Shown here: positions 1,195 to 11,174 of the stretch, one piece after another
Numbering within the stretch: the stretch's first letter is position 1
Layout of the letters: each line of letters begins with the position of its first letter
Source of the DNA: Halovenus sp.
GTDB lineage: Archaea; Halobacteriota; Halobacteria; Halobacteriales; Haloarculaceae
NCBI GenBank assembly: GCA_028275145.1
Contig: JAQCNG010000083.1
Location: forward strand, 1-11,662
Direction of reading: 5' to 3'
Length of the DNA stretch: 11,662 bases
The notes under the pieces: generated by a model
Databases searched by the model: none
Told to the model about the DNA's origin: nothing
The model's input: the letters and a program-made list of their open reading frames with translations, nothing else
Made by a program: the position numbers and the translations under genes

Positions 1195-1200
1195 CATTAA
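1195..1200 (-). promoter_or_regulatory. TATA-like box for the DUF5808 gene
   Basis: CTTAAT on the minus strand is 22-27 nt upstream of the ATG at 1173, within an otherwise GC-rich stretch. That is the spacing of a TATA box for a leaderless archaeal transcript. It overlaps the cofG stop codon, so it could equally be chance. Confidence 0.35.
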
Positions 1201-2519
1201 GATGGTTTCCCTCGCGTCGACAGGTCGCCGGCCGCGACCCGCCGGTAGCGCCGTCCGGCCTCTGTGTCGGCCGCGAGCGCGTCACGGAGTCGCCTCGAGA
1301 GCCAGGCTCCCCCGTCGTGAGGCGTCTCCGGTGGTCTCCCGTCGAACCCCTGCCGGCGGAACTGGTCGGGGAGATAGCGCTCGTGGACGGGCAGGCGCTC
1401 GCGCAACGGGACACCCGCGTGCTCGGCGATGTCGCGCAACTCGGACAGCGCCGGCCAGGCGTAGTCGGGGTTGATGTGGTCGTCGGTGACCGGCGAGACG
1501 CCGCCGAGGTCGTCGACACCACAGTCCACCAGGTCCCGCGCGGGCGCGAGATTCGGCGGCACCTGCACCGACACCGACGGCGGGAGCGCGGCCCGGGCCA
1601 TCGCCACCGTCCGCCGGAGCAGTTCGAGGTCCGGCGAACCGCCCCGCCAGCGCTCGTTTTCGACAACCGGCTGGACGATGACCTCCTGTACGTGGTCGAA
1701 CCGCTCGTGGAGCGCCCGGATTGCGAGCAGGCTCTCGGCGCGGTCACGGGGGCTCTCGCCGATGCCCACCAGAATGCCCGTGGTGAACGGAACCCCGAGT
1801 TCCCCGGCGACCCGGAGTGTCCGGAGCCGCTGTGGGGGTGACTTGACCCGGCGGCCGCTGTGTGCGGCCACGTCCGCGGTCGTCTCGAGCATCACGCCCA
1901 TGCTCGGGTTGAACTCTGCCACCGCGGCCATCTCATCGCGGGTCTGGTCGCCGGGGTTGGCGTGTGGCATGAGCCCCTCCGCCAGGGTCAGTTCGCACAC
2001 CTCACGCAGGTAGCTGTGGATGGAGTCGTGCCCCCAGGCCGAAAGCTGGTCGTGGATGGCCGTGTAGCGGTCGTCGGGGTCGTCGCCGAAGGTGAAAAGC
2101 GCCTCCGTACAGCCCGCGTCGACACCCGTGCTGACGATGTCCCGGACCTCCTCGGGCGAGAGCAGCGTCGCCTCGCCCGGCGGGTCGAAGTACGTGCAGT
2201 ACGTGCAGGTGTACCGGCAGGCGGTCGTCAGCGGGACGAAGACGTTGCGGGCGAAGGTCAGGGCGTCTGCGGCCTCGACGTCGGCCGGTCGAACCTCGAG
2301 CAGGCGGTCGACGGCCGCCGTTGCTATCTCGATGTGACCGCCGTCCAGAATCTCGTGTCTGGTCACGTCGCCTGCCGGTCGGCCGGTGCTGTCGGCGTGG
2401 CTGGCACCGACGAACCGGGCGGGGGGGCGGTCGACCTCGACCGGGCCGATTCGTGACCCGCCGGCTGTCGGGGTCGACGGGTCGCCGGTTTCGTCGGGTT
2501 CGCTCCGGTCGTTGCTCAC
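1197..2519 (-). CDS. cofG: 7,8-didemethyl-8-hydroxy-5-deazariboflavin synthase subunit CofG
   Basis: This is a radical SAM enzyme that, with CofH, builds the deazaflavin FO, the chromophore of coenzyme F420, from 5-amino-6-(D-ribitylamino)uracil and tyrosine. The radical SAM cluster motif CRYTCTYC (CxxxCxxC) is at residues 101-108 of the 440-residue form, preceded by the family-like stretch FARNVFVPLTTA. Other recognisable blocks are EALFTFGDDPDDRY, HANPGDQT, GVMLETTADV, TTGILVGIGE, VIVQPVVENERW and SVQVPPNLAPARDL. The start is uncertain. The open frame runs up to a GTG at 2582. A GTG at 2519 has an AT-rich box 23-28 nt upstream and is used here. A GTG at 2366 would give 389 residues, closer to the usual family length, and would drop a Pro/Asp-rich N-terminal stretch that looks disordered. 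CofH is not in this window. The stop overlaps a possible ATG of the DUF5808 gene. Confidence 0.93.
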   Translation of the reverse strand: MSNDRSEPDETGDPSTPTAGGSRIGPVEVDRPPARFVGASHADSTGRPAGDVTRHEILDGGHIEIATAAVDRLLEVRPADVEAADALTFARNVFVPLTTACRYTCTYCTYFDPPGEATLLSPEEVRDIVSTGVDAGCTEALFTFGDDPDDRYTAIHDQLSAWGHDSIHSYLREVCELTLAEGLMPHANPGDQTRDEMAAVAEFNPSMGVMLETTADVAAHSGRRVKSPPQRLRTLRVAGELGVPFTTGILVGIGESPRDRAESLLAIRALHERFDHVQEVIVQPVVENERWRGGSPDLELLRRTVAMARAALPPSVSVQVPPNLAPARDLVDCGVDDLGGVSPVTDDHINPDYAWPALSELRDIAEHAGVPLRERLPVHERYLPDQFRRQGFDGRPPETPHDGGAWLSRRLRDALAADTEAGRRYRRVAAGDLSTRGKPS

Positions 2520-2541
2520 AGCCGGCTTTAGAGGTTCGGAG

Positions 2542-2548
2542 CTAAAAT
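2542..2548. promoter_or_regulatory. AT-rich box between divergent cofG and the 2608 gene
   Basis: CTAAAAT on the plus strand (ATTTTAG on the minus strand) is one of the few AT-rich patches in the divergent intergenic region. It lies 23-28 nt upstream of the GTG at 2519, fitting a TATA box for leaderless cofG mRNA. For the rightward gene it would place initiation near 2570 and leave a leader of about 35 nt before the ATG at 2608. Use in both directions is an inference. Confidence 0.4.
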
Positions 2549-2607
2549 GCGTCACGGAAAAGGGAACCAACACGCTGAACACCGCGCAGGTTCGAGAGCC
2601 AACGACG

Positions 2608-3774
2608 ATGCTACATAGGAGCGCGGAGTGGTTGGCGGACAGCGACCGGGTGCCCGACAGTGCGTGTGCTGTCGTCGGCTACTACGCCGACACCGGTGTG
2701 TTCGATTACCGGAGTCTCCTGCTCAAACGGCGCGTCGACGGTGTCGTCGGGGCGATGCTCGACAGGCTCTTCGACGAACTCGGTCGGGTCGTTGCCGACG
2801 AACTCGGCTACGACGGGGTCACGCTCAGATACGACACGAAGCTCGTACTGCCGGCGAAGTTGACACTCGGTCACCTCTACAGGGAACGCGAACCCGCCGA
2901 CCACCACCGTGCGGAGGAGATGACCCGGCTGGCCGTCGAGGCACTCATCGACGGGGATATGCGCGACGCCATCAACGACCAGGAGTTCGGGGATTTCGAG
3001 GTGGACGTGGATATCGACGAGGACGAGCGCCGACGACTCGCCGAGGTTGCACAGGACCACCTGCAACAGCGCGTCGAGAAACAGCTCTCGGCGTACTCGT
3101 CGTCGGTCCGTGAGACCTACGAGTGGGCTGTCGAACTGTCCAACACCCACCAGGCACGCGACGAGCGGTTCCGGGAACTGATGGCCGGTGTCCAGCGCGG
3201 TGAGACACCGGCAGAGCGACTCGCGGCCGAGTACCGCGACGCGGAGTTCGAGGAGTCGCCTGCGCTGTTTACCGACGCCGAACTGTCGCTCCCCTACGTC
3301 AAAACCCAGTACGACCGTGTCGGGGTGCTCTACGACGCGATGCTGGGGATGTACCGCGAGTCCGGGCTGTCCATCGCGCGCCCGTTCCAGCGGTCTATCG
3401 TGCTGGCGATAATCGGCGCGCAGGTGTGGCTCGACGATATCGACGACTTCGAGGCGGACATCCGGTCGGGACAGCTCACCCCCGCAACCGCGGAGTATCT
3501 GCTCGCGGGCGAGGACGACGACCCCCGGGAGGCGGTGGTTGCGGTCGGTCGGAGCTATCTCGACCGCGCAAAAGAGGAGGCAACGGCCGTCGACTCCGCG
3601 CTGACCGGTATCGCAATCGAGTACATTCTCCGCTCGGGTGAACCCGACGCGCTGCCACCCGGACTCGAAATCAGGCGGGCCACCCCGGAGGATGCCGCCA
3701 GCCAGGTGCGGGAGGCCGACACCGGCAGTCCCGGTGAACCCGAAAATGGGGTACCCTCGGGGGGAGAGCGATGA
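2608..3774 (+). CDS. Uncharacterised helical protein with DDxxD motif (possible isoprenoid-synthase-like)
   Basis: This 388-residue acidic protein is not a family I can name. It appears almost entirely alpha-helical. Features in order: a Tyr-rich N terminus (VVGYYADTGVFDYRSLLLKR, residues 22-41); a region with RYDTKLVLPAKLTLGHLYRE (74-93); an acidic stretch, EFGDFEVDVDIDEDERRRL (126-144); helices 145-215; and IARPFQRSIVLAIIG (256-270) leading into WLDDIDDFEAD with RSGQLT just after (274-291). D276-D277-x-x-D280 in the form 'Q-x-x-DDxxD...G.xT' resembles the second Asp-rich motif of trans-isoprenyl diphosphate synthases and related class I enzymes. I do not see a convincing first Asp-rich motif, so enzymatic activity is speculative. 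The tail after residue 350 looks disordered. The ATG at 2608 is chosen because the upstream part of the frame runs antisense into the cofG 5' region. The stop overlaps the next start (ATGA), so the two products are probably made together. Confidence 0.8.
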   Translation: MLHRSAEWLADSDRVPDSACAVVGYYADTGVFDYRSLLLKRRVDGVVGAMLDRLFDELGRVVADELGYDGVTLRYDTKLVLPAKLTLGHLYREREPADHHRAEEMTRLAVEALIDGDMRDAINDQEFGDFEVDVDIDEDERRRLAEVAQDHLQQRVEKQLSAYSSSVRETYEWAVELSNTHQARDERFRELMAGVQRGETPAERLAAEYRDAEFEESPALFTDAELSLPYVKTQYDRVGVLYDAMLGMYRESGLSIARPFQRSIVLAIIGAQVWLDDIDDFEADIRSGQLTPATAEYLLAGEDDDPREAVVAVGRSYLDRAKEEATAVDSALTGIAIEYILRSGEPDALPPGLEIRRATPEDAASQVREADTGSPGEPENGVPSGGER

Positions 3775-5054
3775 TACCGCCGGGTAGGCTGCTCAGACGG
3801 ATTGCATCGGCGGCGAATATGGCGACTGTCGCCGGCCGGACGCTCCTGGGTATGGACACGAACCCCGTGCCCGCCGACTGGACCCACATCTCGAAGGTCG
3901 ACCCGGAGGGCGAGAAACTGCTCCCACTGGGGTTTCCGCTGTATCTCTCGGAGACGAGCGCGGTGTCTGTCGGCGGCTCCCAGGACGTGACCGCCGAGAA
4001 CAGCGAGGAGACGATGTCGCTCGTGGCTGCCACCAGCGCGCCGATGCTACACGAACCGAGCGGGGCCGGTCACGTCACCGAGCAGACCCGCGAGAGCGCC
4101 GAGTCGATCGCCATCCCGGAGGTGCTCAACGGCGACACAGAGGCGCTCGTGGGGACCCTCGGGGAGGGGCTGGACTACGTGCGCGGGGAACTGGGTCCGG
4201 GACTGGTCGAGCGCCGTACCGGTATCCCGCTGGACGGTGACGGACTGCTCGGCCGGCGACTCGGCAACTTCGCCGCGGCCTACCTCATGCGGGAGGCGAT
4301 ATTCGAGGCATACATCATAATGAACCCCGACAGCGCCGCGGCCCGCGAGGCCGGCGTCACCGAGTCGGACCTGCTCTCGCCACAGGCCGCCCGCGAGCGC
4401 GCGCTCGCCGCCGAGTACCACCTCGAGAGCGAGGTGGTGTATCTGGAGTACTCGGGCACCTTCGGCGGCGAGGAGGCTGTCGCAACCCTGACAGAACTCG
4501 ACGACGCGCTCACGATGCCCCGAATCTGGTACGGGGGCGGCCTCGACAGTGCCGAGAAGGCAGACACCGTCCTCGATGCGGGGGCCGACGCCGTTGTCGT
4601 CGGGGACGTGCTCCACGATATCGCCGACGTGGAGGCAGACCTGGTCGAACAGGCCCGCGCGGCGTTCGAGACGCCACCGGACCACGCACAGTTGCTCGAC
4701 TGGGTCGAGGAGACGGTCGATGTCGGCGAGACGAGCGCGAGGCGGTACCTCTCGACCATCCCGGAGGTGGACGACGCGACGGGGATGGCGACGGAGTATC
4801 TCGCCGCTGGCGTGGAGTTTACCCTGTCAGTCGACGCCATCGCGGCCCGGTTGGACGAACCAGACAGAACAGACATCTCAGAGACACTCCGCGAGGACTC
4901 GCGGCTGGCGGAGACCCGTCTGGCCGCATCACTCGACAGTGAGCAGGCCGACCTTCCGCGGCGACTGGCCGCGACGCTGCTCGCCGACCGGTTCGACGTG
5001 GCGATGCCCGACGCGCTCGCGGCCCGGCATCTGGGCGTCGAACTGAGGGCCTGA
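3771..5054 (+). CDS. Divergent geranylgeranylglyceryl phosphate synthase paralogue with C-terminal extension
   Basis: Residues about 37-300 match the TIM-barrel family of (hepta/geranylgeranyl)glyceryl phosphate synthases, which join sn-glycerol-1-phosphate to a polyprenyl diphosphate in archaeal ether-lipid synthesis. Visible blocks are WTHISKVDP (37-45), AVSVGGSQDVT (64-74), HEPS (94-97), EAYIIMNPDS (179-188), VVYLEYSGTFGG (222-233), WYGGGL (253-258) and ADAVVVGDVLHD (272-283). These parallel the haloarchaeal GGGP synthase blocks TKVDPDK, YIVLNPD, YVEYSG, YGGGIR and VVVGD. Odd points: the Arg of GGGIR is replaced (GGGLDS, D259), the KVDPDK loop is KVDPEG, a long insertion lies between 125 and 178, and residues 301-427 form an extra mostly helical domain not found in the usual enzymes of about 210-250 residues. 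The N terminus (LLRRIASAANMATVAGRTLL) may be an amphipathic helix. The 3771 start overlaps the upstream stop (ATGA) and follows a GGGGAG at 3761-3766. This is probably not the main housekeeping enzyme; substrate unknown. Confidence 0.85.
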   Translation: MIPPGRLLRRIASAANMATVAGRTLLGMDTNPVPADWTHISKVDPEGEKLLPLGFPLYLSETSAVSVGGSQDVTAENSEETMSLVAATSAPMLHEPSGAGHVTEQTRESAESIAIPEVLNGDTEALVGTLGEGLDYVRGELGPGLVERRTGIPLDGDGLLGRRLGNFAAAYLMREAIFEAYIIMNPDSAAAREAGVTESDLLSPQAARERALAAEYHLESEVVYLEYSGTFGGEEAVATLTELDDALTMPRIWYGGGLDSAEKADTVLDAGADAVVVGDVLHDIADVEADLVEQARAAFETPPDHAQLLDWVEETVDVGETSARRYLSTIPEVDDATGMATEYLAAGVEFTLSVDAIAARLDEPDRTDISETLREDSRLAETRLAASLDSEQADLPRRLAATLLADRFDVAMPDALAARHLGVELRA

Positions 5055-5162
5055 TACGGTCGTTCGTGACTCTTTACCGCCGTGGTGACACAAATTGCGT
5101 GTATCACGCCCTGACAGACCTATCTGTGACGTGGCCACGAAAACAATCACGAACGATCGTAT
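5054..5162. repeat. 16-nt near-perfect inverted repeat flanking 77 bp
   Basis: The left arm 5054-5069 (ATACGGTCGTTCGTGA) and the right arm 5147-5162 (TCACGAACGATCGTAT) are reverse complements with one mismatch. The left arm begins within the stop codon of the GGGPS-like gene. The interior contains a 10-bp perfect palindrome, CGTGGCCACG (5130-5139), and ACAGA-CCTA-TCTGT (5114-5127). I see no flanking target-site duplication and no T tract. It could be a MITE-like remnant, a protein-binding region or a long-range RNA structure. Confidence 0.6.
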
Positions 5163-5190
5163 GAGTTACTGCTCCCGGCAGCGGTCGGAG

Positions 5191-5228
5191 ACGAGCCTCC
5201 CGACTCAGACAGAGGACACGAGCCTCCC
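5191..5228. repeat. Two 11-nt direct repeats
   Basis: ACGAGCCTCCC occurs at 5191-5201 and again at 5218-5228, a 27-nt period, in the gap between the convergent GGGPS-like and DUF502 genes. The rest of the gap (5055-5306) holds the inverted repeat, an AT-rich patch GATAAATTTC at 5251-5260, and no convincing gene. Confidence 0.5.
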
Positions 5229-5273
5229 AGCAGGCGGGCCTACTGATTAGGATAAATTTCATGACATCTAAGC

Positions 5274-5299
5274 GTGACCATCCGGGAACAACGGGTCAC
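5274..5299 (-). terminator. Possible terminator hairpin after the DUF502 gene
   Basis: GTGACC (5274-5279) pairs with GGTCAC (5294-5299) around a 14-nt loop, just beyond the DUF502 stop at 5307. On the minus strand it is followed by an AT-rich stretch (5251-5273). The stem is short, so this is a weak call. Confidence 0.25.
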
Positions 5300-5306
5300 A
5301 TGGGAG

Positions 5307-6095
5307 TTACGTGTCGGTCGGATTTGCCGAGCGGTCGGTCGATGGGGTGTCCTCGGCCGGGCCACCGGTCTCGGGGGCGTCACCTGACACGGCATCGCCC
5401 CCGTCGGCGTCCACCCCGTCGGCGGGCGTGTCATCGGAGGATGCGCCACCGTCGCCGGCGAGATTCGCCGCGACGTCCTCGATGTCGGAGACGCTGACCT
5501 CGCCTGGCCGGTCGGTGTCGGACCCGAACAGTTCCGCCGCGCCGGTGTCCTCGTTGTTGCCGAAACCGGCGCTGAGCAGTCTCGTGAGGGCGTCCTCCAC
5601 GTTATCCCCGATCTCGGTGTACCGGTCCTCCTCGACCTCGATGACGAACCCGGTGGTGATGTTCGGTGCTGTCGGGAGAAAGAGAATCTCGCGCCCGTCG
5701 GGCGCACGGTTGCCCGTCTTGAACGCGGTCATGCGCAGACCGTTCCAGACCTCCAGTCGCACGGGCTTTTGCAGGTCACCGGTCCCCGAGAGGGCAGTCT
5801 CGACGGCCATCTTCGAGGCGTTGTAGATGACACGCAGACCGGGCAGATGGTTCATCACGTCGTCGAGCGCACGCTCCAGAACGGCACCCAGTGCCGTCCG
5901 CATCAGGTAGCCAACCGAGAACACCAGCAACACGAACGTCAGGAGCGTCAGCAACACCCGGACCGGACCCGCGACGTTGGGGAGGATGGGGACGCGGGCG
6001 AGGTAGCCGTATATCCAGGCGAGAAAGACGACGGTCACCACAAGCGGGAGGAGAACCATGAGGCCGCTGCCGAAGTCTCGCTTCCACGAGGCCAT
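5307..6095 (-). CDS. DUF502 family membrane protein
   Basis: This 262-residue protein begins MASWKRDFGSGLMVLLPLVV. It has two transmembrane helices (about residues 10-34 and 44-66), then a soluble domain with HLPGLRVIYNASKM (83-96) and LPTAPNITTGFVIEV (140-154), the latter being the family's characteristic 'P-T-x-P-N-x-T-x-GF' block. The biochemical role of DUF502 proteins is not known to me. The C-terminal part (from about 213) is acidic, Asp/Gly/Ser/Pro-rich and likely disordered, as often seen in haloarchaea. An in-frame ATG at 6200 would add 35 residues that look unlike the family and would overlap the divergent gatD start, so 6095 is preferred. The gene is divergent from gatD. Confidence 0.87.
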   Translation of the reverse strand: MASWKRDFGSGLMVLLPLVVTVVFLAWIYGYLARVPILPNVAGPVRVLLTLLTFVLLVFSVGYLMRTALGAVLERALDDVMNHLPGLRVIYNASKMAVETALSGTGDLQKPVRLEVWNGLRMTAFKTGNRAPDGREILFLPTAPNITTGFVIEVEEDRYTEIGDNVEDALTRLLSAGFGNNEDTGAAELFGSDTDRPGEVSVSDIEDVAANLAGDGGASSDDTPADGVDADGGDAVSGDAPETGGPAEDTPSTDRSANPTDT

Positions 6096-6135
6096 GCGCG
6101 GGTTAACAGGGGGCAGGTAATGAGTCCTTTCGTTG

Positions 6136-6166
6136 TGAACGGATGAACCCGGGCGCTGAACGGATG
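6136..6166. promoter_or_regulatory. 10-bp direct repeat in the DUF502-gatD divergent promoter region
   Basis: TGAACGGATG occurs at 6136-6145 and 6157-6166, exactly 21 bp apart start to start, which is two turns of the helix. It lies in the 103-bp gap between the divergent starts at 6095 and 6199. GGTTTCAAG (6167-6175), a weak TATA-like patch 24-32 nt upstream of gatD, directly follows the second copy. A repressor or activator site is an inference. Confidence 0.4.
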
Positions 6167-6198
6167 GTTTCAAGTCCGGCCGGCGGATATCGGGTGAC

Positions 6199-7443
6199 AT
6201 GGAAAGCGGTGACAGAGTCCGGGTCGACCGTGACGGCCAGCGCCACGAGGGTGTGGTGTTGCCGTCGTCGACGCCGGCGCAACTGGTGGTGAAACTCGAC
6301 AGCGGCTACAATGTCGGTATCGACCGCGACGGCGCGACGGTCGAGGTGCTCGAATCGTCGGTCCACGATATCGAGCGCGCACAGGACGAACAGGGTCAGT
6401 CCCGCATCGAGTTCGACGAGGAGCTCCCGACCGTGGCGCTCATCTCGACGGGTGGGACCATCGCCTCGACGGTGGACTACCGGACGGGCGCGGTCACCGC
6501 GCAGTTCGACGCCGAGGACGTCCTGCGTGCGGTGCCGGACCTGGCGGGACTGGCCAACTACCGGGGACGGGTGGTCGCGAACATCCTCTCCGAGAACATG
6601 ACCCCCGACGTCTGGCAGGAGCTGGCCGGTGCGGTCCACGAGGAAATCGCCGCCGGTGCCGACGGTGTGGTGGTGATGCACGGAACCGACACGATGCAGT
6701 TCACCGCCTCCGCGCTGGCGTTTATGCTTGACACACCGGTTCCGGTGGTGTTCACCGGCAGTCAGCGCTCGGCCGACCGGCCCTCCTCGGACAACGTGAT
6801 GAACGCCGTCTGTGCGGTGGAGGCCGCAACCAGCGACTGTGCGGAGGTGCTCGTCTGTATGCACGCCCAGAGCTCCGACGAGCGGTGCGCGCTCCACCGC
6901 GGAACACGGGTCCGGAAGAACCACACCTCCCGCCGTGACGCGTTCGAGACGGTCGGCGCGAGGCCGCTGGGGACGGTCGATTTCGAGAGCCGCACGGTCT
7001 CTGTCCGCCGCGAGTACCGCGAGCGCGGCGGGGTCGAACTCGACATCAACCCGGATCTGGAGACAGACGTATCGCTGGTGAAGTTCACGCCAGGTGACGG
7101 ACCCGGGCGACTGGACAGGGTCGCCGACAGCGCCGGGGTCGTGCTGGAGGGAACCGGACTGGGCCACGTCAACACCGACTGGATACCGGCAATCGAGGAG
7201 CTGAGCGACGCGGGCACGCCGGTGGTGATGACCAGCCAGTGCATCGACGGCCGGGTCTGTGACCGCGTCTACGACACGGGACGGGACCTGCTCGACGCCG
7301 GTGTCATCGAGGGCGAGGACATGCTGCCGGGCACCGCGAAGGTCAAGTTGATGTGGGCACTCGCGAACACGGACGCCGTTGCCGAACAGATGCAGACACC
7401 GCTGGCCGGCGAGATACAGGAGCGGTCGGTGCCATGGACCTGA
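6199..7443 (+). CDS. gatD: Glu-tRNA(Gln) amidotransferase subunit D
   Basis: GatD is the asparaginase-like subunit of the archaeal GatDE amidotransferase. It releases ammonia from glutamine (or asparagine), and GatE uses it to convert Glu-tRNA(Gln) to Gln-tRNA(Gln). Residues 1-60 form the N-terminal beta domain (GDRVRVDRDG...GYNVGIDRDGA) that distinguishes GatD from plain L-asparaginases. The asparaginase domain follows: STGGTIAST (83-91), HGTDTMQFTA (161-170), VFTGSQRSADRPSSDN (184-199) and RKNHTSRRDAF (239-249). The expected catalytic set T87, T163, D164 and K240 is present, with the spacing I recall for characterised archaeal GatD. The 414-residue length is normal. Its partner gatE is not in the window. 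The last 10 nt overlap the following acetyltransferase gene. Confidence 0.96.
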   Translation: MESGDRVRVDRDGQRHEGVVLPSSTPAQLVVKLDSGYNVGIDRDGATVEVLESSVHDIERAQDEQGQSRIEFDEELPTVALISTGGTIASTVDYRTGAVTAQFDAEDVLRAVPDLAGLANYRGRVVANILSENMTPDVWQELAGAVHEEIAAGADGVVVMHGTDTMQFTASALAFMLDTPVPVVFTGSQRSADRPSSDNVMNAVCAVEAATSDCAEVLVCMHAQSSDERCALHRGTRVRKNHTSRRDAFETVGARPLGTVDFESRTVSVRREYRERGGVELDINPDLETDVSLVKFTPGDGPGRLDRVADSAGVVLEGTGLGHVNTDWIPAIEELSDAGTPVVMTSQCIDGRVCDRVYDTGRDLLDAGVIEGEDMLPGTAKVKLMWALANTDAVAEQMQTPLAGEIQERSVPWT

Positions 7444-8357
7444 GCCACGAGGGGCCGTCACCGCCCGAGGGAATCCACCTCCGGCCGGCGACCCACGACG
7501 ACTACGAGGACGTGGCGGCGTTCACCCGGGACACCTGGACCGAGGTTTCGGACTACCTCCCGGATGTCTATCACGACTGGATAGACGGCGAGAACAAGCG
7601 AACACTGGTGGCCGACGCGGGCGACGCGATCGCCGGCATCGCACAGGCGGTGATGCTCTCGCCCAGCGAGGCCTGGACACAGGGGATGCGGGTCAACCCC
7701 GCCTTCCGCGGGCAGGGCGTCTCCGAGGCGGTGACCCGGGCGCTGTTCGGGTGGGCCCGCGAGCAGGGCGCGGCCGTCGCGCGCAACATGGTGTTCTCCT
7801 GGAACGAGGCCGGGATGGGGCAGTCCCGCAGTCTCGGCTACGAACCGGTCGCCGAGTTCCGCTGGCTCCACCCCGAACCGGCGGCCGGCGACCTGCCGGC
7901 GACCGTAACCTCACGCGTCGACACCGCGTGGTCGTTCTGGACAGCGAGCGAGGCGCGCACACGGCTCGCGGGACTTGCGCTGGACATGGACGAATCCTGG
8001 GCGATGCGGGAGTTGACCCGGGGGATGCTCCGCCGGGCCAGCGAGGAGACTGCGCTGCTTGCGGTCACCCGCGAGGACGGCACGCGGGGGCTGGCGTACC
8101 GCACCCGGACTCTAACTCGAGACGGCGAGAACGGGACCGAACAGTGGGCCGAGTACGGCGTCGGCGCGTGGGCCGACCCCGAGGCCGCGGAGACACTCCT
8201 CCGGGCCGTTGCTGTGGACGCGGCCGACTGCGGCGCAGACCGGACACGCGTGCTGATACCCGAACACCCCCAGACGGTGTCCGACGGCGCCTACCTGCGG
8301 GCCGAACTCGGAGAGCATCCCGACTTCGTGTTCGCTGCCGACCTGACCGGCGTCTGA
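7434..8357 (+). CDS. GNAT family N-acetyltransferase
   Basis: This 307-residue protein starts with IHLRPATHDDYEDVAAFTRDTW (residues 14-35), the usual first strand and helix of a GNAT fold. Motif A, the acetyl-CoA pyrophosphate-binding loop, is GMRVNPAFRGQGVSEAV (84-100, with R92-G-Q-G95), and motif B-like SWNEAGMGQSRSLGYEPV follows (122-139). The second half (about 160-307) looks like a degenerate second GNAT-like lobe without a clear motif A, so the protein is about twice the length of a single-domain enzyme. The substrate is unknown. The start is ATG 7434, 10 nt inside gatD, with GGAG at 7419-7422 upstream; co-expression with gatD is likely. The stop abuts the convergent lipoprotein stop (TGATCA). 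Confidence 0.88.
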   Translation: MDLSHEGPSPPEGIHLRPATHDDYEDVAAFTRDTWTEVSDYLPDVYHDWIDGENKRTLVADAGDAIAGIAQAVMLSPSEAWTQGMRVNPAFRGQGVSEAVTRALFGWAREQGAAVARNMVFSWNEAGMGQSRSLGYEPVAEFRWLHPEPAAGDLPATVTSRVDTAWSFWTASEARTRLAGLALDMDESWAMRELTRGMLRRASEETALLAVTREDGTRGLAYRTRTLTRDGENGTEQWAEYGVGAWADPEAAETLLRAVAVDAADCGADRTRVLIPEHPQTVSDGAYLRAELGEHPDFVFAADLTGV

Positions 8358-8531
8358 TCACCCGGACGGCCCGAGCGTGCGCTCGGTGCCGGCCGCGTCC
8401 CCGGACTCTGGCTGGTCGCCCTCGCGGCCGGGAACACCCGTCGTGTCGTCGAAGAGACTGCAGCCCGCGAGCCCAGTCAGGAGCGCTGCGCCGCCGACCG
8501 CCAGCAGCCGTCGCCTGTCGGTATCTGTCAT
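8358..8531 (-). CDS. Small Tat-exported lipoprotein
   Basis: This 57-residue protein, MTDTDRRRLLAVGG..., has a twin-arginine signal (RRR at 6-8), a hydrophobic core and a lipobox LAGC with Cys24, the usual haloarchaeal Tat lipoprotein signal. The mature part is only 34 residues, polar and acidic (DDTTGVPGREGDQPESGD), with no recognisable domain. It lies downstream of the dolichol-kinase-like gene on the same strand, 143 bp away, and may have its own promoter: ATTCAAT lies about 26-32 nt upstream of its ATG. The short mature region suggests either a genuinely small lipoprotein or the shortened remains of a longer one. Confidence 0.65.
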   Translation of the reverse strand: MTDTDRRRLLAVGGAALLTGLAGCSLFDDTTGVPGREGDQPESGDAAGTERTLGPSG

Positions 8532-8652
8532 CGCACTGGAGTTGACCGGCCGACCGATTGAATCCTTCGGTTCGCACGTAGAACCAGAGAGGAGGACCAG
8601 TATCAGTTCTGAAAGAGGCGCGGCCGGGAACTCGGACGCGGTGGAGCAGTGC

Positions 8653-8668
8653 TGGCCAGGACCGGCCA
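8653..8668 (-). terminator. Weak hairpin downstream of the dolichol-kinase-like gene
   Basis: TGGCC (8653-8657) and GGCCA (8664-8668) form a 5-bp GC stem with a 6-nt loop, 7 nt past the stop at 8675. There is no T tract, so a terminator role is doubtful. Confidence 0.2.
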
Positions 8669-8674
8669 CAGGTG

Positions 8675-9295
8675 CTAGAGAGGAACACCACCCAGTTGCA
8701 GTCCGACCCAGATGCCGAGCGCACCGGCGGGCGCGATGGTGAGGTCGTCGTCGATGATGACGCCACGGACGACCGGCTTGATGCCGTCCGCGACCATCCC
8801 GCCGGTGCCGCCGAGAACGACCGCGAGTGGTTCGTCGTGGACAAAGGGAACGGTGAGCACCGCGCAGGCGAGAAACATCGTCACGAGGGCGCGCGGTCGT
8901 TTCACCCGACGGAGTTCGTCCACCGACGCCGCACCCGCCACCGGGTCGGCGATTGTCAACATCAGGATGGCCGGAATCGCGACCTGTGGGTCGAAAGCGA
9001 GCGCGACCGCTGTCGCCGAGAGCATAAAGAGGAGATACGCCCCGAGCGAGTCCTCCTCGTACCTCCGGAGGTAGTCGAACAGAAACAGGTCGAGACCGAA
9101 CCGGAGTCGCCCCAGTTCGACGAGAGACGCGATTGCCGTGGCACCCAGCATGATGGCCCCAACGAGCCACCACTCCACAAACGGGAGAACGTAGAGCGCG
9201 GGAAAGCCGGTCCCCGCGACGTGGACGAGTCGGCGGCCCAGGTCGTCCTGTGAGAGGCGGTGCTGGCTCCGCTCCCAGAGCGTCGTCTCGGTCAT
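8675..9295 (-). CDS. Dolichol/phytol kinase-like membrane protein
   Basis: This 206-residue integral membrane protein belongs, by pattern, to the SEC59/VTE5-type CTP-dependent polyprenol kinases, related to CDP-diglyceride synthases. They phosphorylate isoprenoid alcohols such as dolichol. Recognisable blocks are RRLVHVAGTGFPALYVLP near the N terminus, SLGAYLLFMLS and TIADPVAGAASVDE in the middle, and GTGGMVADGIKPVVRG plus DDDLTIAPAGALG near the C terminus. The last corresponds to the conserved 'D-N-L-T-I-P' motif. About six transmembrane helices are apparent. The ATG at 9295 follows a Shine-Dalgarno-like GGGAGG with 6-nt spacing. An upstream in-frame ATG at 9364 would add 23 Pro/Arg/Gln-rich residues unlike the family. 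It lies 91 bp downstream of glyS on the same strand. A role in dolichol phosphate supply for N-glycosylation is plausible but inferred. Confidence 0.8.
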   Translation of the reverse strand: MTETTLWERSQHRLSQDDLGRRLVHVAGTGFPALYVLPFVEWWLVGAIMLGATAIASLVELGRLRFGLDLFLFDYLRRYEEDSLGAYLLFMLSATAVALAFDPQVAIPAILMLTIADPVAGAASVDELRRVKRPRALVTMFLACAVLTVPFVHDEPLAVVLGGTGGMVADGIKPVVRGVIIDDDLTIAPAGALGIWVGLQLGGVPL

Positions 9296-9301
9296 CGGGA
9301 G

Positions 9302-9307
9302 CCTCCC
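9302..9307 (-). promoter_or_regulatory. Ribosome binding site of the dolichol-kinase-like gene
   Basis: GGGAGG on the minus strand lies 6 nt upstream of the ATG at 9295 and decides that start over the one at 9364. It is part of the 13-nt palindrome CGGGAGGCTCCCG, so the site could be partly paired in the mRNA. Confidence 0.5.
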
Positions 9308-9386
9308 GCTCGGCCCGGGTGTCTGTGACTGCGGCCGCGGCTGCTGGGTTCGTGTGCGCTCCAACCGGACTGTCGGCGGCAGTGGC

Positions 9387-11174
9387 TCATAGCTCGTCGA
9401 AAAGGAGGTCGCCGTCGCGCAGCAGTCCGAGTGTCTCGGCTAACTCCGCCGTCGGGACGCGGCGCTGGTCGGTGCTGTCGCGCTCCCGAACCGTGACGGT
9501 GTCCGCCTCGAGGGTGTCGTAGTCGATTGTCACGCAAAACGGGGTACCGACCTCGTCCTGACGGCGGTAGCGCCGGCCGATTGCGCCGGCCTCGTCGTAG
9601 GTCACCGACAGGCCGGCCGAGCGCAACTGACCGGCCACCTCCCGGGCGTACTCGTCCAGACCGTCCCGGTCCATCAGCGGGAACACGCCGACGGTGGTCG
9701 GTGCGACCGCCGGCGGGACCGAGAGATACTGGCGGTCGTCGCCGTCGACCTGGTCCTCCCGGTAGGCGTGGACCAGCACCGTGTAGACGAGTCGACCGAG
9801 ACCAAAGGAGGGTTCGACGACGTGTGGCGTGACGTGCTCGCCCGACTCGGTCACCTCCTCGACGGCGAAGCCGGTGTGTTCGACCGGGACGTCGTAGCGC
9901 TCGTCGTCCACCACCACAGTGACCGTCTCACCCGCGAACGCGTCGGGGTCGCGCCCGGCACGCTCGGCGAGCGCGTCGGCGATGTCGGCGGCAACGCCAC
10001 CAAAGGCCGGCCCCAGTTCGCTCATGTCGGGGTCGACGGTCGGTCGCTCCACGGTGACCGGTTCGTCGTACTGCTTGAACACCGAGAACGACTCCCCGGA
10101 GTGGTCGGCGTGTTTGTCGAGGTCGTAGCTGCCCCGGTAGGCGAAGCCGGTCACCTCGACCCAGTCGCCGCCGATCTCGGTCTCGGCGTCCCAGCAGTCT
10201 GCGGCGTAGTGCGAGAGTTCGCCCGGCAGATGCTGGCGGTACCGGAACCGGTCCATATCGACGCCGATGGACTCGTACCAGTCCCGCGCCAGCCCCAGGT
10301 AGAAGGCGATCCAGTCGCTCTCGATGACCCCGCTGTCGACTGCCTCTTGGACGGTCAGGCTCTTCACCCCGCCGTCGTCGGCCTCCTGCTGTCGGGCGGC
10401 GTACAGCGGCAGGGTCACGTCCGCCACCCGGTCGAGCGGTGGCTCGTCGGTCTCCGGGTCGATGAACTGCTCCAGTTCCGCCTGTGAGAACTCCCGGACC
10501 CGCACGAGCGCCTTTCGCGGGCTTATCTCGTTGCGATAGGCCCGGCCGACCTGTGCGACGCCGAACGGCAACTGGTTGCGGGCGTACTCGGCCAGCTGTG
10601 GGAAATCGACGAAGATACCCTGGGCGGTCTCCGGGCGAAGATAGCCCGGCGAGGCCGTTCCGGGGCCGATGTTCGTCTCGAACATGAGGTTGAACTCCTC
10701 GACCGGTTCGCCCGCGAGCGCCACACCACAGGTCGGACAGACGATGTCGTTGTCGGCGATTATCTCGCCAACCTCCGCCGGCGGGAGCGACTCCGCCTCG
10801 TCGATGTCGGTGTTGTCCTCGACGAGATGGTCGGCCCGGTGGCTCCCGTCACACCCGGGACACTCCAGAATCATGTCGTCGAAGGTGTCCAGATGTCCGG
10901 AGGCGTCGAACACCGCCTCGGGCATCACCGTCGGCGCGTCCACCTCCATGTTCCCCTGGCGGGTCACGAACAGGTCCCGCCAGGAGTCGGTGATGCTGTC
11001 TTTCAGTGGTGTCCCCTGTGGCCCGTAGGTGTAGAAGCCGCCGACACCGCCGTAAACCGACGCGGTCTGGATAAAGAAGCCACGGCGTTTCGCCAGCTCG
11101 GCGATGCGGTCGATCTCGCTCGCAACCCCCCCATCGGTCCGGTGCCCGGTCCCGGGTCGGTCACCGCCGCTCAT
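9387..11174 (-). CDS. glyS: Glycyl-tRNA synthetase
   Basis: This is the 595-residue dimeric-type class II glycyl-tRNA synthetase used by archaea and eukaryotes; it charges tRNA(Gly) with glycine. In order: an N-terminal region RGFFIQTASVYGGVGGFYTYGPQG (31-54); a cysteine pair CPGC (105-108) and a second, CPTC (146-149), likely binding zinc; EFNLMFET (160-167); YLRPETAQG (178-186); motif 2, GRAYRNEISPR...VREFSQAELEQF (210-237); and motif 3, EPSFGLGRLVYTVL (454-467). The C-terminal anticodon-binding domain (about 486-595) begins with PPAVAPTTVGVFPL. The first 17 residues look like a poorly conserved extension. The start codon overlaps the CBS gene's stop (ATGA), so translation is coupled. Confidence 0.96.
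   Translation of the reverse strand: MSGGDRPGTGHRTDGGVASEIDRIAELAKRRGFFIQTASVYGGVGGFYTYGPQGTPLKDSITDSWRDLFVTRQGNMEVDAPTVMPEAVFDASGHLDTFDDMILECPGCDGSHRADHLVEDNTDIDEAESLPPAEVGEIIADNDIVCPTCGVALAGEPVEEFNLMFETNIGPGTASPGYLRPETAQGIFVDFPQLAEYARNQLPFGVAQVGRAYRNEISPRKALVRVREFSQAELEQFIDPETDEPPLDRVADVTLPLYAARQQEADDGGVKSLTVQEAVDSGVIESDWIAFYLGLARDWYESIGVDMDRFRYRQHLPGELSHYAADCWDAETEIGGDWVEVTGFAYRGSYDLDKHADHSGESFSVFKQYDEPVTVERPTVDPDMSELGPAFGGVAADIADALAERAGRDPDAFAGETVTVVVDDERYDVPVEHTGFAVEEVTESGEHVTPHVVEPSFGLGRLVYTVLVHAYREDQVDGDDRQYLSVPPAVAPTTVGVFPLMDRDGLDEYAREVAGQLRSAGLSVTYDEAGAIGRRYRRQDEVGTPFCVTIDYDTLEADTVTVRERDSTDQRRVPTAELAETLGLLRDGDLLFDEL

Follow-up and report, generated by a model that had tools for sequence, protein, structure and literature searches.

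An extended geranylgeranylglyceryl phosphate synthase-like protein and a linked candidate lipid gene in Halovenus and its relatives

The extended synthase gene and its conserved residues

The window analyzed here is a stretch of 11,662 nucleotides from Halovenus sp. (Haloarculaceae; assembly GCA_028275145.1, contig JAQCNG010000083.1). It carries an intact gene for an enlarged homologue of geranylgeranylglyceryl phosphate synthase (GGGPS), representing a class that we call LONG, and an adjoining upstream gene, up387. LONG is likely a catalytically active GGGPS of a third haloarchaeal class. The features of the LONG gene, with roles named after the Archaeoglobus fulgidus enzyme, are as follows.

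3771..5054, forward strand: LONG-class GGGPS-like gene, 427 amino acids, an intact 427-codon open reading frame (ORF)
3780..3845, forward strand: N-terminal helix (residues 4-25) preceding the barrel in the AlphaFold2 model
3876..4646, forward strand: PcrB/GGGPS (beta-alpha)8 barrel, residues 36-292
3894..3905, forward strand: KVDP motif, residues 42-45 (D44 is the D13 equivalent); K42, D44, and P45 are 100% conserved in 46 LONG sequences
4176..4178, forward strand: Y136, at the alignment position of W99, the chain-length limiter; canonical rows have W
4191..4295, forward strand: mid insertion, residues 141-175; model helices at 123-150 and 159-175
4311..4313, forward strand: Y181, equivalent to A. 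fulgidus Y124, 100% conserved
4440..4457, forward strand: YLEYSG, residues 224-229; Y224/E226 correspond to Y165/E167 and S228/G229 to S169/G170
4530..4547, forward strand: YGGGLD, residues 254-259, phosphate-binding loop; G255-257 are invariant, and A. fulgidus has GGGIDS
4647..4745, forward strand: residues 293-325, inserted ahead of the C-terminal motif in the alignment
4746..4763, forward strand: C-terminal motif YLSTIP, residues 326-331, aligned with the terminal FxxTIP/FxxTVP of four shorter-class rows
4770..5051, forward strand: appended helical part, residues 334-427; pLDDT (predicted local distance difference test) 93-99 across the block in the AlphaFold2 model

The Pfam model PF01884 (PcrB) covers residues 36-291 of the window protein (E 2.3e-26, 93.1 bits vs a cut-off of 23.9), and the protein has a PcrB/GGGPS-type (beta-alpha)8 barrel. 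The original prediction, made from the DNA letters, of a diverged GGGPS homologue with a recognizable barrel was therefore borne out, as was its insertion in the middle of the sequence, at residues ~141-175.

Residue roles in the A. fulgidus enzyme were taken from a review (PMC9385802), which gives D13 as the Mg/diphosphate ligand and Thr37 as possibly a metal ligand too. D13, Y124, Y165, E167, S169, and G170 correspond to D44, Y181, Y224, E226, S228, and G229 of LONG, and the GGG loop (G194, G195) and G215 to G255-257 and G278; each of these LONG residues is conserved in 46 of 46 aligned LONG sequences. T37 is replaced by Ser in every LONG sequence and in all 14 shorter-class sequences of this alignment, which used 12 of 20 outgroup sequences and left out eight partial or duplicate rows (L088, L022, L014, L131, L138, L144, L102, and L100).

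Against this background, two proposed active-site changes look different. A shift from GGGIR to GGGLDS had been read as an altered active site, but the group I enzyme of A. fulgidus itself has GGGIDS, and GGGIR is not the group I motif; D259 is the majority residue of both LONG and the shorter middle class described below (91% and 64%, respectively), while the standard haloarchaeal enzyme mostly has GGGIHD. The suggestion of a changed KVDPDK loop stands in weak form, for position 46 (D to E) and the residues after it, but K42, D44, and P45 do not vary in any aligned class.

The extra C-terminal helical domain placed at residues 301-427 is indeed modeled as helical and extends beyond the canonical length, but it is not one block: residues 293-325 precede the FxxTIP-type motif and residues ~334-427 follow it. 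These boundaries come from an alignment of 38 chosen sequences (31 LONG, 4 middle class, and 3 canonical). The A. fulgidus enzyme (2F6U/8RUW, group Ia) has none of the added parts, that is, the N-terminal helix, the mid insertion, the 293-325 insertion, and the appended helical part, and its Trp limiter and Thr37 are Tyr and Ser in LONG. The heptaprenylglyceryl phosphate synthase PcrB of Staphylococcus and Bacillus is a single domain, with a C35 donor, according to PMC9385802. The mid insertion is largely common to the shorter, IaH2-like class, and the canonical class mostly has gaps there.

Past residue 292, Pfam gave no match, and a profile comparison of the C-terminal part with the PDB yielded nothing convincing (best E 0.11). 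Fold searches with the whole LONG model hardly probe this part, and we do not claim a new fold. Of the added parts, the appended one is the least conserved, with a mean majority fraction of 0.38 for residues 346-427 compared with 0.73-0.77 in the barrel. Because it is so much more variable than the barrel, it most likely serves in structure or docking and not in catalysis. The same poor conservation could be expected of an assembly or read-through artifact, but we regard that origin as exceedingly improbable: the part is carried by all 31 aligned LONG sequences and modeled with high confidence, its third codon position is the most variable in five of five pairwise comparisons, as in coding sequence, and W311, Y326, L327, T329, A340, and H420 are at least 80% conserved in LONG.

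Three haloarchaeal classes and a lineage with LONG as the only copy found

A PcrB match was present in 391 of 391 genomes of the order searched. In an order-wide search with four candidates scored per genome, 57 of 392 genomes gave a LONG match of at least 270 bits (a fragment in one case), and 79 further genomes of the 392 had only a match of ~79-139 bits, belonging to a middle class (MID). Canonical copies score under the threshold of that search; in the search of the window's own family they reached ~43-70 bits against the window protein. In a tree of 129 sequences, reduced from 163 rows by removing those at least 93% identical to a kept one, the canonical (61 sequences, support 0.951), middle (15, 0.99), and LONG (42, 0.999) classes each formed one clade, and LONG and MID were sister clades (0.999).

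The classes also differ in architecture, as seen in a length survey with one row per distinct protein. Canonical haloarchaeal enzymes (NF003199/TIGR04147), probably the class named IaH1, are mostly ~235-245 amino acids long, have a Trp limiter and no insertion, and are ~27-33% identical to the window protein; the same reaction is expected, with the group I residues common to both. MID proteins are 36-44% identical to it and mostly 250-290 amino acids long, ending at the FxxTIP motif beyond which LONG continues, and they share with LONG the mid insertion, Ser at position 70, and Gly at 121 and 271. MID is probably the IaH2 class of Peterhoff 2014 (name taken from PMC9385802, which gives Leu at the limiter for IaH2), since 57% of MID rows have Leu there. 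The window protein, with Tyr, does not belong to IaH2: LONG is a separate monophyletic clade without the Leu limiter, and its 31 aligned rows have Y in 24, H in 4, S in 2, and G in 1.

The original prediction took LONG for a paralogue beside a housekeeping enzyme. In the genomes of this genus that we examined, it is instead the only copy found. The window's own genome, which is 77% complete, has one PcrB match, LONG itself; as far as this draft shows, it holds no other GGGPS, one of two findings that the prediction had named as telling against it. The other, a C-terminal region in all haloarchaeal main enzymes, is not what we see, given the limited distribution of LONG.

From the family search, we chose 22 genomes with LONG present and no evident canonical match. 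They comprise all 21 genomes of at least 90% completeness of g1 (the window's genus, Halovenus), g2, g6, g8, g13, and g16, plus one at 87% (g91). The haloarchaeal GGGPS model gave exactly one match in 22 of 22 (1.7e-47 to 5.6e-52), the 21 more complete genomes included, whereas it gave two in four of four LONG-plus-canonical genomes picked as a contrast. In ten named-record genomes, largely overlapping the 22 (Halovenus carboxidivorans, rubra, aranensis, and salina; Salinibaculum litoreum and sp. KK48; Halapricum sp. CBA1109 and hydrolyticum; SHR40; J07HX64), only the LONG-class sequence exceeds the Pfam cut-off, and three of the ten have weak matches below it. No canonical GGGPS was found in these LONG-only genomes. 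J07HX64 also contains a second, partial LONG (L022), which begins near residue 125, lies roughly 10 kb away from the complete copy (L003), and sits inside an 818-amino-acid open frame.

All 29 sequences from LONG-only genomes fall in one clade (support 0.943), and a single loss of the canonical gene is therefore probable. Paralogue status does apply in other lineages, where LONG is truly a second copy beside the canonical enzyme: in checked genomes of f11 (g28), f2 (g55, g75), and f1 (g11, g14, g15), and in one g10 genome. The LONG class would probably stem from a common origin with the shorter second haloarchaeal GGGPS; it would then have acquired its helical C-terminal part, spread in the form of an extra copy, and finally taken over from the canonical enzyme in Halovenus, Halorhabdus, Halapricum, Salinibaculum, Salinirussus, and their kin. 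Separately, genera g43 (G070, G111, G236) and g56 (G116) have a single GGGPS match at MID-class score, and the canonical enzyme seems to have been lost there too.

The linked up387 gene and its neighborhood

2608..3774, forward strand: up387, 388 amino acids from the ATG at 2608; it lies upstream of the LONG gene, with an ATGA overlap

The up387 protein is predicted to adopt a class I isoprenoid-synthase fold, all-helical as in polyprenyl synthases. Ten residues, D114, D116, D119, N122, and D123 together with D275, D276, D278, D279, and D283, are invariant in 38 sequences, and we read these two Asp-rich motifs as the putative two metal motifs. The members scanned have no Pfam or NCBIfam match, PF00348 is absent at E up to 1 from the four members scanned for it, and a PDB sequence search found no relative. 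Profile-profile comparison with polyprenyl synthases (hhalign, local and global) was not significant, and a merged alignment showed no motif correspondence, so we rejected a sequence-level tie; the fold alone links them. Among fold matches, MoeN5 and polyprenyl synthases tie (Z within 1). The idea that a TKLxLP stretch stands in place of the isopentenyl diphosphate-binding GKRxRP motif is therefore unsupported and was not used.

Within the family, up387 occurs in 44 of 45 genomes with LONG compared with 39 of 101 without it (hand tally; Fisher P = 5e-13, with genomes that are not independent), and in 38 of the 45 it lies at most 5 kb from LONG. In other families it is within 5 kb of LONG in seven of seven loci (L208-L214) and in 19 of 20 (L282-L301, the exception being L285). 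The two genes may be codirectional, convergent, or divergent, and they are therefore not one inherited operon.

Of 26 genomes examined in which up387 is not adjacent to LONG, 25 have a geranylgeranyl reductase beside it: 13 belong to g3 (10 at L106-L115 and 3 others), 7 to g5, and 5 to the Halovenus genus. In g3 the neighbor is the digeranylgeranylglycerophospholipid reductase. The lone exception is G001 (L177), where neither LONG nor a reductase is near. The adjoining reductases belong to two families, NF041385 (771 bits, cut-off 700) and a TIGR02032 type (229 vs 158.8). All three genes together form a cluster that is a feature of the LONG-only lineage, because the reductase lies inside the retrieved stretch at 10 of 16 named loci of that lineage and at 0 of 35 loci of other genera (L168-L175, L208-L214, L282-L301). 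Based on its fold and surroundings, up387 is most likely an undescribed ether-lipid enzyme of class I prenyl-chain type, acting in the same pathway as LONG.

Further genes occur around these clusters. Two loci of the Halorhabdus genus (L184 and L185) have a short-chain-type prenyl synthase directly after up387; it was not found there in L316-L318, and we rejected it as a constant member of the Halorhabdus cluster. At L185 (taken as Halorhabdus utahensis), positions 2904-10779 hold the geranylgeranyl reductase, up387, the prenyl synthase, two small hydrophobic-looking ORFs, a 514-amino-acid hydrophobic-looking ORF with no Pfam or NCBIfam match, and then LONG. One draft genome (L134/L019) seemed to carry up387 and LONG fused in a single ORF; because the frame crosses undetermined bases, this was dropped as evidence.

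Two other genes of the window lie on the reverse strand.

1197..2582, reverse strand: CofG gene; its family match (residues 100-446) begins ~100 codons into the listed ORF
8675..9364, reverse strand: hydrophobic-looking protein with no convincing Pfam match

Given this offset, the true CofG start is probably later, which leaves promoter room before up387. The protein at 8675-9364 may resemble the polyprenol/phytol kinase type.

Function of LONG and up387 and what it would mean

If LONG works as its conserved residues suggest, D44 with Mg would hold the diphosphate of geranylgeranyl diphosphate, and the YxEYSG, YGGG, and VGD loops would hold glycerol-1-phosphate. E226 would help the C3 hydroxyl attack the prenyl cation, forming the first ether bond of an archaeal lipid. 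As to chain length, LONG alone matches the haloarchaeal GGGPS model in genome G060 (taken as Halorhabdus utahensis AX-2T), and PMC3035240 gives C20 diphytanyl ethers as the major phospholipids of this species. Since C20 diphytanyl lipids are made where LONG is the sole form, its product is very probably C20 geranylgeranylglyceryl phosphate (GGGP), and LONG most likely serves its lineage as the functioning C20 enzyme and is no spare paralogue. UbiA-family proteins were present in 20 of 20 genomes tested.

Several points weigh against this interpretation. Activity is something that we infer. The window protein falls under the curated cut-offs of both haloarchaeal models (TIGR04147, 93.6 vs 300; NF003199, 158.9 vs 169, the latter just passed by some other LONG members), and its limiter Trp is replaced by Tyr. 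The node uniting all haloarchaeal sequences is weak (0.597), so that the deep branching order is tentative, and the 77% completeness of the window's own genome limits the sole-copy claim there. That G060 is H. utahensis is itself inferred; two PcrB matches were counted in it, the second failing the haloarchaeal GGGPS model; and the lipid data are older chemotaxonomy. An unrelated enzyme might instead make GGGP.

The low family scores and the fast-evolving C-terminal part would suit a non-catalytic or regulatory derivative, a role that the original prediction had raised. We consider it very unlikely, as the listed catalytic and binding residues are all invariant and LONG is the sole copy in the tested LONG-only genomes of organisms expected to need GGGP, H. 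utahensis with its C20 ethers among them. A preference for a longer donor (C25, geranylfarnesyl), as proposed for IaH2, has several points in its favor: instead of Trp, the limiter position has Tyr in 24 of 31 sequences and His, Ser, or Gly in the others; the sister class MID is probably IaH2, which PMC9385802 ties to C20-C25 lipids; and prenyl synthases over the cut-off number three in 12 of 12 LONG-only genomes compared with two in eight of eight others. We nonetheless judge it unlikely. The C20 lipids of H. utahensis argue against it, as does a prenyl synthase lying close to LONG in two genomes of the Halorhabdus genus: it has Phe at -5 before the Asp motif, the short-chain signature according to section 30 of PMC6423904. 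In other genera the extra prenyl synthase is of the long-chain P/L/G type, which the same section does not tie to C25, and we dropped it as a C25 marker because it is not specific. This typing rests on four rows with the motif properly located; rows L268-L272 were mis-hits and went unused.

LONG and up387 might form a two-enzyme system like MoeO5/MoeN5 of moenomycin synthesis, in which a prenyl-glyceryl lipid would be begun and a further prenyl added to give an unusual haloarchaeal lipid. The MoeN5-like fold of up387 does not single this out, because polyprenyl synthases match as well; LONG is nearer to group I GGGPS than to MoeO5, organism and acceptor differ, up387 also sits without LONG beside geranylgeranyl reductase (e.g. 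in 10 of 10 g5 and g3 loci), and we know of no unusual lipid from these genera. We therefore find such a system rather improbable. In a broader form, which we put forward tentatively, LONG and up387 might be a dedicated prenyl-ether lipid module in which up387, as a new family, would take a glyceryl- or reductase-linked prenyl chain as its substrate in an undescribed step of the pathway, much as MoeN5 follows MoeO5. Literature titles and abstract beginnings revealed no paper on a C-terminally extended GGGPS (Peterhoff 2014 lies outside that coverage), and our search returned no paper with both the full enzyme name and Halorhabdus.

The committed pathway to archaeal membrane lipids begins with GGGP synthase, an enzyme at the center of the "lipid divide." In one lineage of haloarchaea, to which Halorhabdus utahensis belongs, a larger, diverged GGGPS appears to have taken the place of the standard one. 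The linked up387 family is a more novel lead than LONG itself: since the members scanned have no family match, a predicted isoprenoid-synthase fold, and a position nearly always near GGGPS or geranylgeranyl reductase, we see in it a strong candidate for an ether-lipid step or partner that is still missing. Both claims, the enzyme swap and the role of up387, are directly testable in culturable strains.
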